DNA of 55,906 bases from Burkholderiales bacterium. Lineage in GTDB: Bacteria; Pseudomonadota; Gammaproteobacteria; Burkholderiales; Burkholderiaceae_C. The stretch is from positions 1 to 55,906 of the forward strand of contig JAPLPK010000193.1 of the NCBI GenBank assembly GCA_026400275.1, written 5' to 3'. Shown here piece by piece: positions 4,748 through 54,054 of this stretch. The first letter of the stretch is position 1. Every line of letters begins with the position of its first letter. Below the pieces are notes generated by a model. The model did not search any database. It was not told the origin of the DNA and saw only the letters and a program-made list of their open reading frames with translations. The position numbers and the translations under genes are program-made.

Positions 4748-4749
4748 AT

Positions 4750-4811
4750 GCTCTACTTTTAATAGCTACTTGCGCAGGCATTACCTGCGCCGCAGCCCTA
4801 TTTTTCATATA
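4750..4811 (+). repeat. Copy of dispersed ~60-bp palindromic element (family A), 3 nt after kinase stop
   Basis: gctctacttttaATAGCTACTtGCGCAGGcattaCCTGCGCcgcaGCCctatttttcatata; shares core with other copies in window. Confidence 0.8.
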
Positions 4812-6693: not shown

Positions 6694-7740
6694 TCAGGGC
6701 AGCTCGGCAACCGGGTCGCGGCCCATCAGGGCGGACACCGCGTCAGCCGGTCGCATGCGGCCGTCCAGCAAGGCCACCACGCCCTCGGTGATGGGCATGT
6801 CCACACCCAGCGCCTGTGCGCGCTGCAGCACCGTGCGGGCGCTGTACACGCCCTCGGCCACATGGCCCAAAGAAGCCACGGCCTGCTCCAGACTGTGGCC
6901 CTGGGCCAACAACAAACCGACTTGGCGGTTACGGCTCAGGTCGCCTGTAGCAGTGAGCACCAGATCGCCCAGGCCGGACAAGCCCATAAAGGTCTCGGCC
7001 TTGGCGCCCAGGGCCAGGCCCAAGCGCGTCATCTCGGCCAGGCCCCGCGTGACCAGAGCAGCCCGCGCATTCAGGCCCAGGTGCAGGCCGTCGCACAGGC
7101 CGGTGGCAATCGCCAGCACGTTCTTCACCGCGCCGCCCACCTCCACGCCGGCCACGTCGTCGCTGGCGTACACGCGCAGCGCCGGGCTGTGGAATGCCGC
7201 CACCAGTGCGTCCCGTACATAGGCCTGGTGACTGGCGGCCACCAGTGCCGTAGGCTGGCCCCGCGCCACCTCCTGGGCAAAGCTGGGGCCGCTCAAAACG
7301 CCATAGCCGGCATCCTGCCAGTGCGGATTATTTGCTATTAATTCAGTAGCTACCTGCGCACGTATTTCGTGCGCTAGAAGCCCAAAAGCCTTGGAACCCG
7401 GCGGCTCAAAGCCCTTGCACAACCAGGCGACCGGCGCCTCGCAGGCAGCCACCACGCCCAGCATGGAACGCAAGCCCGACATGGGCGTGCCGACAATCAC
7501 CAGATCCTGCCCAACGAGCGGGCTAGCCAGGTCTTCAACGGTAGAGGAGCAGAGTTGCAGCGCATCCGGAAAGCGAATGCCCGGCAGATACCGGGCATTG
7601 CAGCGATCGGCTTGCATGGCCGTCGCCTGTTGCGGATCGCGCGCCCACAGCGTGACGACGTGGTGCGCAGACGGGTTTTGGGCAGCGCTGATGGCCAGCG
7701 CCGTACCCCACGCACCCGCGCCCAGCACGATAATTTTCAT
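6694..7740 (-). CDS. gpsA: NAD(P)H-dependent glycerol-3-phosphate dehydrogenase
   Basis: [54 protein letters not shown]; secB neighbour. Confidence 0.95.
7331..7390 (+). repeat. Family A palindromic element copy inside gpsA (antisense to the gene)
   Basis: tttGCTATtaattcaGTAGCTACctGCGCAcgtatttcgTGCGCtagaaGCCcaaaagcc; matches family core; read in frame on the gpsA strand as [21 protein letters not shown]. Confidence 0.65.
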
Positions 7741-18339: not shown

Positions 18340-19566
18340 TTACTGGGTGGAGGCGCCGGCTTCGAACCACTGTTTGATCATCGCGCGCTCGGCATCGGTG
18401 ATGCCGGTGGCGTTGTTCATCGGCATGATTTTCGTCACCACTGCCTGCTGGTACACCGCCTGGGCGTGCTGCTGCAGGGCGGCCGGAGAGTCCAAGCGCA
18501 CATTCTTCATTTGCACCTGGGGACCGTGGCACATATAGCAGCGCTGGGCCAGCACGGGCTGTATTTTTTCATAAGAAAATACGGCCGAAGCGCTTGTATT
18601 ACCTGCGGGAGTAGCTACGGAACTTGTAGCATCCACGGGCGCAGGCCGCATCCACACAATGGCCCCCACGATCACCGCCAGGCCAACCAGGGCATACGCC
18701 AAAGGATGGCGGTTGCGACCCAGCAAATAGCCGTGGCGCATCACGAAGAACTGGCGTATGGCCGCACCGGCGAACATCATCAGCACGAGCACCAGCCAGT
18801 TCTGCGGGTGGCTGTAGGTAAAGCTGTAGTGGTTGCTCAGCATGGCAAACAACACCGGCAGCGTGAAATAGGTGTTGTGCACGCTGCGCTGCTTGCCGCG
18901 CTGCCCATGGATCGGGTCCACTGGCTGGCCGGCCTTGATGGCGGCCACCACGGTGCGCTGGCCCGGGATGATCCAGAAGAACACATTGGCGCTCATGCTG
19001 GTGGCAATCATCGCGCCCACCAGCAGAAAGGCTGCACGCCCAGCAAACCAGTGGCAAGCCAGCCAGGCCGCCACGCAGACCAGCACCGCCACCAGTGCGC
19101 CGACGATGGCGTCGCCATGCTTGCGCTTGCCAAACAGCTGGCAGATGCTGTCGTAGCACATCCAGAACACCACCAGGAACGACAGCGCCACACCAATCGC
19201 CGCGCCGGGCGACCAGTTCATCAGCGACTTGTCGATCAGATAGGTACTGGCATTCCACAGATAGGAAACGGTGAACAGCGAGAAGCCGGTCAGCCAGGTG
19301 GAATAGCTCTCCCAGTAGAACCAGTGCAGATGCTTGGGCAGCTGCGGCGGCGCCCCGGCGAACTTCACCGGGTGGTAGAAGCCGCCGCCGTGCACGGCCC
19401 ACAGCTCGCCGCTCACACCTTGTTTTTTGAGGTCGTCGTCGACCGGCGGCGTCAGGCTGCTGTCGAGAAAGACAAAGTAAAAGGAAGAGCCAATCCAGGC
19501 GATGGCGGTGATGACGTGGACCCAGCGCAGCAGCAGGTTGGCCCAGTCGAGGTAATAACTTTCCAT
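18340..19566 (-). CDS. puuD: Urate hydroxylase PuuD (membrane urate oxidase with C-terminal cytochrome c domain)
   Basis: ESYYLDWANLLLRWVHVITAIAWIGSSFYFVFLD; C-terminal CYMCHG haem motif. Confidence 0.9.
   Translation of the reverse strand: MESYYLDWANLLLRWVHVITAIAWIGSSFYFVFLDSSLTPPVDDDLKKQGVSGELWAVHGGGFYHPVKFAGAPPQLPKHLHWFYWESYSTWLTGFSLFTVSYLWNASTYLIDKSLMNWSPGAAIGVALSFLVVFWMCYDSICQLFGKRKHGDAIVGALVAVLVCVAAWLACHWFAGRAAFLLVGAMIATSMSANVFFWIIPGQRTVVAAIKAGQPVDPIHGQRGKQRSVHNTYFTLPVLFAMLSNHYSFTYSHPQNWLVLVLMMFAGAAIRQFFVMRHGYLLGRNRHPLAYALVGLAVIVGAIVWMRPAPVDATSSVATPAGNTSASAVFSYEKIQPVLAQRCYMCHGPQVQMKNVRLDSPAALQQHAQAVYQQAVVTKIMPMNNATGITDAERAMIKQWFEAGASTQ
18566..18632 (-). repeat. Family A element copy inside puuD linker (only copy on the - strand)
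   Basis: Reverse complement: GCTACaagttccGTAGCTACTcccGCAGGTAATACaaGCGCTTCGGCCGTATTTTCTTATGAAAAA. Confidence 0.75.
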
Positions 19567-21118: not shown

Positions 21119-21182
21119 TGCTACAAAAAACATAGCTTCCAGCGCAGGTAAATACTGCGCCAGCGGCCCATTTCTCTTAAAA
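21119..21182 (+). repeat. Family A element copy, just after lipoprotein stop
   Basis: tGCTACaaaaaacATAGCTtccaGCGCAGGTAaatacTGCGCcagCGGCCcatttctcttaaaa. Confidence 0.85.
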
Positions 21183-33528: not shown

Positions 33529-33684
33529 ATGCCACCTACCTCGTTCAAAGGCAACAAACAGTCCTTGCCGAGCAAACTCTGCGCAGCCTGTGGCCGCACC
33601 ATGACCTGGCGTAAACGCTGGGCCAAGACCTGGGACGAGGTGAAGTACTGTTCAGACGCCTGCCGCAAGGCAAAAAATGCTTAG
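33529..33684 (+). CDS. DUF2256-like small cysteine-rich protein (51 aa)
   Basis: Manual translation MPPTSFKGNKQSLPSKLCAACGRTMTWRKRWAKTWDEVKYCSDACRKAKNA*; absent from ORF track; overlaps the start of the next gene by 8 nt. Confidence 0.88.
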   Translation: MPPTSFKGNKQSLPSKLCAACGRTMTWRKRWAKTWDEVKYCSDACRKAKNA

Positions 33685-35248
33685 GCACCTGGTGCTTGTG
33701 CTGGGCGACCAGCTGAACCTGGACTCTTCGGCTTTCGATGGCTTCGACCCCGCGCAGGACGCGGTGTGGATGGCCGAGGTGGCCGAAGAGTCCACCCACA
33801 TCTGGTCCAGCAAGCAGCGCATCGCGCTCTTCCTGGCCGCCATGCGCCACTTTGCGCAGGCCCTGCAAACCGCAGGTCGGCCACTGCACTACACCCACCT
33901 GGACGACCCAGACAACCACGGCAGCCTGGCAGCCGAACTACAGCTTGCTATAGAAAAACTAGCGCCTAGCGCAATCATTCTGTGCGCCCCAGGCGATTTT
34001 CGTGTTTTTAAATCTGTCCAGGCCGTAGTCCGGCAAGCCAGCATCCCCCTGGACGTGCGCGACGACCGGCACTTCTACGCCACCGTGCGCGAGTTCGCCG
34101 CCCACGCCAAAGACCGCAAGACCATTCGCCTCGAATACTTCTACCGCGCCCTGCGCAAACAGCACGGCGTGCTGATGGAAGGCGACCAGCCCGCAGGCGG
34201 CCAGTGGAACTTCGACGCCGAGAACCGCGAAGCCTTTGGCAAGGCTGGCCCCGGCGCCGTGCCACCCCGCAGCACCTTCGCGCCCGATGCAAGCACCCAG
34301 GAAGTCATTGCCCTGGTCAACAACCGCTTTGCCAGCCACCCCGGCACGCTGGACAGCTTTGCCTGGCCCGTCACGCGCGCGCAGGCACTGCAGTCGCTGG
34401 ACGCGTTCATCCAACAGCGCCTGCCGCTGTTCGGCCGCTACCAGGACGCGCTGTGGCCGGGCGAGGCCTGGCTCTACCACTCGCACATCTCCGCCGCGCT
34501 GAACCTCAAGCTGCTGGACCCGCGCGAGGTGGTGGCCGCCGCCGTAGCGGCTTATGAAACCGGCCACGCACCGCTGGCCTGTGTTGAAGGCTTTGTGCGC
34601 CAGATCCTGGGCTGGCGCGAATACGTGCGCGGCATCTACTGGACGCAAATGCCCGGCTACGCCGAGCGCAATGCGCTGCAGGCACACGAACCCCTGCCCG
34701 CCTGGTACTGGACCGGCCAGACCGACATGGCCTGCCTGCGCGACGCCATCACCCAAACCCTGGCCCACGGCTACGCCCACCACATCCAGCGCCTGATGGT
34801 CACCGGCCTGTTCGCCCTGCTGCTGGGCGTGGAGCCACAGCAGGTGCACGCTTGGTATTTGTCGGTCTACGTCGATGCGGTGGAATGGGTAGAGCTGCCG
34901 AACACCCTGGGCATGGCGATGTATGCCGACGGTGGGCTGATGGCCAGCAAGCCCTACATCGCCACCGGCAAATACATCGAGCGCATGGGCAGCAAGCAGC
35001 ACTGCGCCAGCTGCCGGTACGACCCTGCCCAGCGCGAAGGTGAGCGGGCCTGCCCCTACACCACGCTGTACTGGGACTTTCTGGCGCGCCACGAAAAGCT
35101 GCTGGCCGCCAACCCGCGCATGGCCTTGCAGGTCAAAAACCTGGCCCGGCTGAGCGACGCGCAAAAGCAGGCCGTCGCCGAGCGCGCCGCCGCTATACGC
35201 GATGGCACTGTGGGGGTAAATAGCGCAGCGGCCCGCCATGGCATTTAG
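33677..35248 (+). CDS. Cryptochrome/photolyase family protein, FeS-BCP (PhrB/CryB-like) type
   Basis: LRHLVLVLGDQLNLDSSAF; C-terminal HCASCRYDPAQREGERACPYTTLYWDFLARH Cys motif. Confidence 0.92.
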   Translation: MLRHLVLVLGDQLNLDSSAFDGFDPAQDAVWMAEVAEESTHIWSSKQRIALFLAAMRHFAQALQTAGRPLHYTHLDDPDNHGSLAAELQLAIEKLAPSAIILCAPGDFRVFKSVQAVVRQASIPLDVRDDRHFYATVREFAAHAKDRKTIRLEYFYRALRKQHGVLMEGDQPAGGQWNFDAENREAFGKAGPGAVPPRSTFAPDASTQEVIALVNNRFASHPGTLDSFAWPVTRAQALQSLDAFIQQRLPLFGRYQDALWPGEAWLYHSHISAALNLKLLDPREVVAAAVAAYETGHAPLACVEGFVRQILGWREYVRGIYWTQMPGYAERNALQAHEPLPAWYWTGQTDMACLRDAITQTLAHGYAHHIQRLMVTGLFALLLGVEPQQVHAWYLSVYVDAVEWVELPNTLGMAMYADGGLMASKPYIATGKYIERMGSKQHCASCRYDPAQREGERACPYTTLYWDFLARHEKLLAANPRMALQVKNLARLSDAQKQAVAERAAAIRDGTVGVNSAAARHGI

Positions 35249-37269: not shown

Positions 37270-37330
37270 TTGCTATTGAATTCGTAGCTACTACCGCATA
37301 TAGCACATGCGCCAGAGCTATTTTTCACCA
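37270..37330 (+). repeat. Family A element copy
   Basis: tGCTATtgaattcGTAGCTACTAccGCAtatagcacaTGCGCcagaGCtatttttcacca. Confidence 0.75.
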
Positions 37331-43690: not shown

Positions 43691-43757
43691 TTGCTACAAA
43701 TTAAATAGCTGCCAGCGCAGATAGATTCTGCGCTGGCAGCCCTTTTCTTCTAAAACT
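43691..43757 (+). repeat. Family A element copy with 14-bp perfect stem
   Basis: ttGCTACaaattaaATAGCTgccaGCGCAgatagattcTGCGCtggcaGCCcttttcttctaaaac; stem gctgccagcgcaga/tctgcgctggcagc. Confidence 0.88.
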
Positions 43758-51112: not shown

Positions 51113-51186
51113 CGCTACAAATTCACACATAAAAAAAGCTGCAAGCGCATTAATTACCTGCGCTTGCAGCTCCTGTTTTCATAGCG
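51113..51186 (+). repeat. Family A element copy with 13-bp perfect stem
   Basis: GCTACaaattcacacataaaaaaAGCTgcaaGCGCAttaattaccTGCGCttgcAGCTcctgttttcata. Confidence 0.85.
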
Positions 51187-53990: not shown

Positions 53991-54054
53991 TGCTATGGAT
54001 TACGTAGCTACCAGCGCAAGTAATACCTGCGCCAGCGGCCTTTTTTATATAAAT
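53991..54054 (+). repeat. Family A element copy overlapping 3' end of metY
   Basis: GCTATggattacGTAGCTACcaGCGCAagtaatacCTGCGCcagCGGCCttttttatataaatg. Confidence 0.88.

Follow-up and report, generated by a model that had tools for sequence, protein, structure and literature searches.

The linker between the membrane and cytochrome c domains of the urate oxidase PuuD is encoded, in frame, by a copy of a short palindromic repeat that is dispersed through the genome of the window, i.e. the whole 55,906-nt stretch analysed here (contig JAPLPK010000193.1 of a Rhodoferax-like member of the Burkholderiales). The puuD segment belongs to this repeat family, occupies a fixed site in a fixed frame, is retained at the nucleotide level and, in several lineages, matches the repeat variant (dialect) of its own genome. 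We consider it probable that these features go back to one old insertion, which was tolerated as a flexible linker and has been refreshed from resident repeats.

A dispersed repeat inside the puuD gene

In PuuD of the window, the element is placed between the Urate_ox_N domain (residues 4-306) and the CYMCHG haem motif (C343). Its core codons (18630..18577, minus strand), GCT ACA AGT TCC GTA GCT ACT CCC GCA GGT AAT ACA AGC GCT TCG GCC GTA TTT, translate to ATSSVATPAGNTSASAVF, residues 313-330 of 408. R1, a sequence-only model trained on seven copies of the window other than the one in puuD, detects the puuD copy with 30.9 bits (E = 1.2e-8 within the window), which excludes chance resemblance. 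In addition, the element reaches a position weight matrix (PWM) score of 40.6, compared to -5.3 +/- 7.7 for synonymous recodings, none of which (0/300) scores as high. In an AlphaFold2 model, residues 307-331 form a coil between two helices, but with a mean pLDDT of only 51.6 this adds little. High variability of this linker region is already noted in published work on PuuD (PMC4562309), in agreement with a site tolerant of change.

The sequence-only reading from which this work started had assigned a repeat copy to the linker ahead of CYMCHG, and the R1 match upholds that assignment. The interval it gave, 18566-18632, does contain the element but runs about 10 nt too far at the 3' end, as the match spans 18576-18631 and the core 18577-18630. 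Its claim that no other copy runs in sense with its host gene is wrong: the copy at 33945-34003, in a photolyase-related DPRP ORF (33677-35245; Pfam DPRP E = 3.3e-75), is also sense and uses the same repeat frame as puuD. Coding recruitment as such stands, but not as the isolated case it was taken for, being family-wide in puuD and accompanied by translation of the repeat in many other proteins.

Table 1. Features of puuD and copies of the repeat in the window.
Feature	Position	Strand	Basis
Intergenic copy	4749..4807	+	R1 50.9 bits
gpsA copy, read in an antisense frame (gene at 6697-7740, minus strand)	7332..7383	+	R1 match
puuD, membrane-bound cytochrome c urate oxidase	18340..19566	-	408 aa + stop; Pfam Urate_ox_N PF06181 E = 3.8e-127; orthologues family-wide
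CxxCH haem-binding motif (CYMCH), residues 343-347	18526..18540	-	12 codons past the element
54-nt repeat core, frame 0, linker residues 313-330 (ATSSVATPAGNTSASAVF)	18577..18630	-	R1 30.9 bits, E = 1.2e-8
Hairpin 2 region (pairing imperfect in puuD), genome-specific variant CCCGCAGGTAATACAAGCGC	18587..18611	-	Near-copies elsewhere in own genome and genus
Hairpin 1, GCTAC (18630-18626) pairing with GTAGC (18618-18614)	18614..18630	-	Sequence reading; arms family-conserved
Urate_ox_N (DUF989) eight-helix membrane domain, residues 4-306	18649..19557	-	Pfam; layout in PMC4562309
Intergenic copy between convergent genes	21119..21176	+	R1 54.6 bits
Sense in-frame copy (AIEKLAPSAIILCAPGDF) in DPRP gene	33945..34003	+	R1 47.7 bits; copy used in building R1
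Intergenic copy between convergent genes	37270..37328	+	R1 49.9 bits
Intergenic copy	43691..43750	+	R1 53.9 bits
Intergenic copy, outside the R1 training set	51129..51185	-	R1 35.3 bits
Copy that overlaps a minus-strand gene at its 3' end	53991..54049	+	R1 59.2 bits

The repeat, with the consensus GCTATAAAATAAATAGCTGCTAGCGCAGGTATTACCTGCGCTAGAGGCCAATTT across several genera, is an imperfect palindrome of ~54 bp and ~48% GC, in which a small hairpin (GCTAY...RTAGC) is followed by a longer one. Position 13, which precedes TAG, is occupied by A in 74% and by G in 25% of intergenic copies, making ATAG the usual form. At least 150 copies are found in the genome of the window among the matches listed, and the density of 0.18 copies/kb in the 453 kb sampled from it extrapolates to roughly 800 copies in 4.55 Mb. 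Using R1 with strict filters, the repeat is detected in 21 of 61 genomes, every one in the window's own family. Copies lie close to gene 3' ends (median distance about 12-21 nt), and 42 of 141 are located between convergent genes, compared to 83 of 576 for all spaces. No strand bias relative to the flanking genes was found for the intergenic copies, and a unidirectional terminator as general function was rejected on this ground. At gathering scores, Rfam leaves the element unmatched and detects only two motifs in the window, an FMN riboswitch (RF00050; 4879-5034, plus strand), shortly downstream of the intergenic copy at 4749..4807, and a SucA RNA motif (RF01070; 49545-49638, minus strand).

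Retention across orthologues and genome-specific variants

PuuD relatives were drawn from the 61 genomes, 401 genomes of the family and 80 named loci, leaving 120 distinct puuD genes after deduplication. For each gene, the best ungapped score in the linker, obtained with a matrix of non-puuD, non-sense copies, was compared to 300 synonymous recodings drawn with the gene's own codon usage. The element is present in the linker of 76 of the 120 genes, at the same place and with every best match in frame 0, and in each of these 76 none of the 300 recodings reaches the observed score. The sequence-only reading had named a linker conserved as protein across distant orthologues without such DNA as the observation that would speak against it; repeat-like DNA is instead found in these 76 genes. 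Linker length, which it had suggested comparing with element presence, indeed differs (62.2 codons with the element vs 55.2 without, p = 6e-11).

The A and T bases of the repeat are kept at third codon positions despite the GC-rich host genes, with a GC3 of 0.29 in the element compared to 0.83 elsewhere in the gene. All 76 genes have GCT as codon 1, a triplet that accounts for 5.3% of Ala codons outside the linker. At codon 5, 29 genes use GTA, 29 GGA and 18 ATA, i.e. the residue varies and the third base is always A. Together with the recoding result, this indicates retention at the nucleotide level and not of the protein alone. Column conservation is also correlated between puuD and intergenic copies, at third positions too (Spearman 0.66, p = 0.004).

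The distance from the end of the element to CxxCH is exactly 12 codons in 71 of the 76 genes, and that from the membrane helix to the element varies from 18 to 36 codons. When the linker is left out of the puuD tree, genes carrying the element fall across most of the family, losses and relics being scattered among them; the element must change state 16-18 times, and many inner branches are weak. A single old insertion followed by scattered losses fits best, with possible regains on this weakly supported tree. We note that two Rhodoferax metagenome-assembled genomes (L076/L077 and L082/L092) have two puuD genes each, all with the element and differing in sequence.

Presence of the element goes along with resident repeats. 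Among the genomes with whole-genome repeat counts, the repeat occurs in 11 of 11 with the puuD element and in 6 of 16 without (Fisher p = 0.0009, uncorrected for relatedness), and its density near puuD is 0.067/kb with and 0.011/kb without the element (p = 0.0004, likewise uncorrected). In genome G163, no repeats are found in 140 kb, and puuD holds only a relic.

Dialects were sampled in 12 genomes, i.e. 11 with repeats and G163 without. Each of the 11 has its own hairpin-2 variant, often carried by the puuD copy as well, and loop and spacer bases track the dialect too. Using one genome per genus, 8 of 9 puuD copies best fit the repeats of their own genome (p = 5e-5), and 7 of 9 when only intergenic copies are considered. 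The signal is detected at third codon positions (p = 1e-4) and also at first and second positions (p = 7e-4). Whole-genome pattern searches, allowing up to 3 mismatches and with puuD itself included in own-genome counts, gave 0 matches throughout for reversed-pattern controls. The segment of G007 has 109 matches in G007 (apart from puuD, two of them are exact) and 177 in the sister genome G003, with 7 in G004, 1 in G000 (the window's genome), 2 in G255 and 0 in six genomes of other genera. The G247 segment has 6 matches in its own genome and 0 in five others, the G331 segment 5 and 0 in ten others. For the window's puuD segment, there are 7 in G000, 2 in G002, 1 (exact) in G004 and 0 in five further congeners. 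The G130 segment matched itself alone. That of G291 likewise had no second match in its own genome, though two copies with 3 mismatches occur in G000. When simply the nearest copy is taken, the own genome provides it for 4 of 11 puuD copies (1.0 expected), and the flanking repeats of 15 loci, used as an independent dialect test, give a weak signal (p = 0.04). Based on these mixed pattern-search, nearest-copy and flank results, dialect tracking is real in several lineages, though perhaps not in all.

The exact match in G004 (L226:13340-13433), 29 nt in length, is located at the N-terminus of an apparent CysN (MNATTSIATPAGNTSAAVLSALKFITCGSVD). The peptide ATPAGNTSA is thus common to two unrelated proteins, PuuD and the apparent CysN, via the repeat, and even a donor-like copy may be coding.

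Proposed origin of the linker

We propose that the linker arose and is maintained in the following manner. Early in the family, a repeat likely inserted once into a linker tolerant of changes in length and sequence. Because frame 0 of the repeat is often stop-free, the copy could then persist as a flexible spacer rich in Ala, Ser, Gly and Thr. We further infer that it has been refreshed in place by resident copies, most likely through recombination (gene conversion) between repeats, resulting in concerted evolution of the puuD copy with the non-coding ones. In genomes whose repeats died out, the linker would decay, leaving a relic or a GC-rich Ala/Pro stretch of reduced length. Other genes would receive copies by the same process, with those outside folded domains surviving preferentially.

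Alternatively, the element may be a functional DNA or RNA site, for protein binding or mRNA folding, where the specificity of a factor shifts and all copies follow by selection, with no exchange between them. While the element overall diverges about as fast as the fourfold sites of the gene, fourfold sites within it are slower (about 0.25 vs 0.41 in the rest of the gene, distant pairs), which would suit such a site, as would the conserved columns common to puuD and intergenic copies. Nevertheless, we regard this reading as unlikely. Hairpin 2 is weakened in puuD, with pairing in 51% of cells compared to 73% in intergenic copies, as would follow if stable hairpins are poorly tolerated in coding sequence, although decay would give the same picture. 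Covariation in the puuD hairpins shows no excess over pair shuffles, and RNA structure is therefore not claimed for these copies. Furthermore, many puuD genes are without the element, and the dialect extends to loop and spacer bases.

The fit of puuD copies to the local dialect and the patchy presence on the tree could also be reached by independent insertions at a hot spot, each lineage's copy arriving after its dialect arose; different REPs at about the same recB site in two Xanthomonas species provide a precedent (PMC3733652). Separate events should, however, scatter, and the single frame and the exact 12-codon spacing in 71 of 76 genes make this quite improbable. So does TTCA at positions 9-12, common to 78% of puuD copies vs 5% of intergenic ones, a difference that is partly due to stop-codon avoidance. 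Hardly any credence is left for ordinary protein-level conservation of an Ala/Ser-rich linker with a chance DNA likeness to the repeat. The peptide pattern A-x-N-S-[VGI]-A ... T-G-A-x-G-Q does recur across genera, yet the reading is refuted by the recoding test and by codon 5, which switches amino acid but never its third base, and the drop in GC3 from 0.83 to 0.29 also speaks against it. An old insertion refreshed from resident repeats is hence the reading that we prefer.

Other coding copies and known repeat systems

Besides puuD, a threshold of at least 19 bits yields 41 copies within ORFs of 150 codons or longer across 11 genomes. Among the 38 in Pfam-recognised genes, 20 have their midpoint outside all domains, compared to 9.2 expected (p = 5e-6), and 11 are located between two domains, including those in DprA, UvrD, MetG, XdhA, GcvT, IleS and asparaginase (two species). 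A frame-0 stop is found in 3% of sense copies vs 37% of intergenic ones, partly by construction as the former were called inside ORFs. Gene starts were taken from a simple codon-usage caller, leaving N-terminal cases uncertain; in-frame copies are seen in likely signal peptides of a secretin (L188:16129-18357) and a SCO1/SenC protein (L177:5485-6093). In asparaginase of two species of the genus (L174:12097-13071 and L227:8040-9014), an antisense-frame copy occupies the same interdomain place, perhaps a second conserved coding site. A xanthine dehydrogenase subunit of G230 (L262:5731-7206) has an in-frame copy between its Fe-S and FAD domains, i.e. a repeat linker in another purine-degradation enzyme besides PuuD. 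A broader proposal is that the repeat dialect of the genome sets the sequence of the PuuD linker: scattered non-coding copies would keep rewriting it, making it evolve in concert with them across the family, and the repeat would be a general source of interdomain linkers, with DprA, UvrD, asparaginase, MetG, XdhA, GcvT and IleS as examples. We advance this only tentatively, leaning slightly against it.

The papers searched gave no description of this repeat, BRE being nearest. BRE, the beta-proteobacterial repeat element of Bordetella and Comamonadaceae, is mostly intergenic, with some copies wholly in coding sequences; it is ~90 bp long with 69% GC in Bordetella, often in tandem, and present in 1-29 copies per genome (PMC3110155). 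By this description, it is set apart from the element, with its 54 bp, about 48% GC and an estimated several hundred copies, although the two could be related.

The nearest precedents are intragenic REPs, as in recB of the two Xanthomonas species, and the Rickettsia palindromic elements (RPEs). GTAG/CGTC-tagged REPs are short palindromes, mostly located between convergent or unidirectional genes, with some inside ORFs (PMC3733652); Rhodoferax, Polaromonas, Acidovorax and Delftia are unmentioned in the main text of that work. The element shares with REPs the short palindromic form, the intragenic copies and the preference for gene 3' ends and convergent spaces. However, it has two hairpins and usually ATAG instead of GTAG at the foot of hairpin 2, and as a rule it lacks the GTAG/CGTC tag that REPs have at one end of the palindrome. 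No RAYT (Y1) transposase with flanking elements turned up in the draft genome G000; its single Y1_Tnp gene has no element beside it, the best element-like match in the 3.3-kb locus reaching 6.7 bits, and a transposase link was rejected.

RPEs are dispersed palindromic repeats that occur in frame in unrelated protein genes and are translated (Ogata et al. 2000, 2002, reviewed in PMC10969869). The element resembles them in its in-frame translated copies in several unrelated genes (38 copies, 20 of them outside Pfam domains). In contrast, RPEs are ~150 bp long and found in Rickettsia, whereas the element is ~54 bp long, found in Burkholderiales and mostly near gene 3' ends; the distinction is based on host and length. 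Moreover, a single coding site occupied family-wide and following the genome's repeat variant is absent from what PMC10969869 relates of RPEs. Rickettsia provides most known cases of translated palindromic repeats, which are taken for curiosities or selfish insertions. Here, a linker derived from a repeat keeps the same site across a family of free-living bacteria, and in several lineages its amino acids vary with the nucleotide variant present in the repeats of the genome. With these findings, concerted evolution between non-coding repeats and part of a protein would become testable in bacteria that can be cultured; they also suggest how repeats may come to supply linkers between domains.
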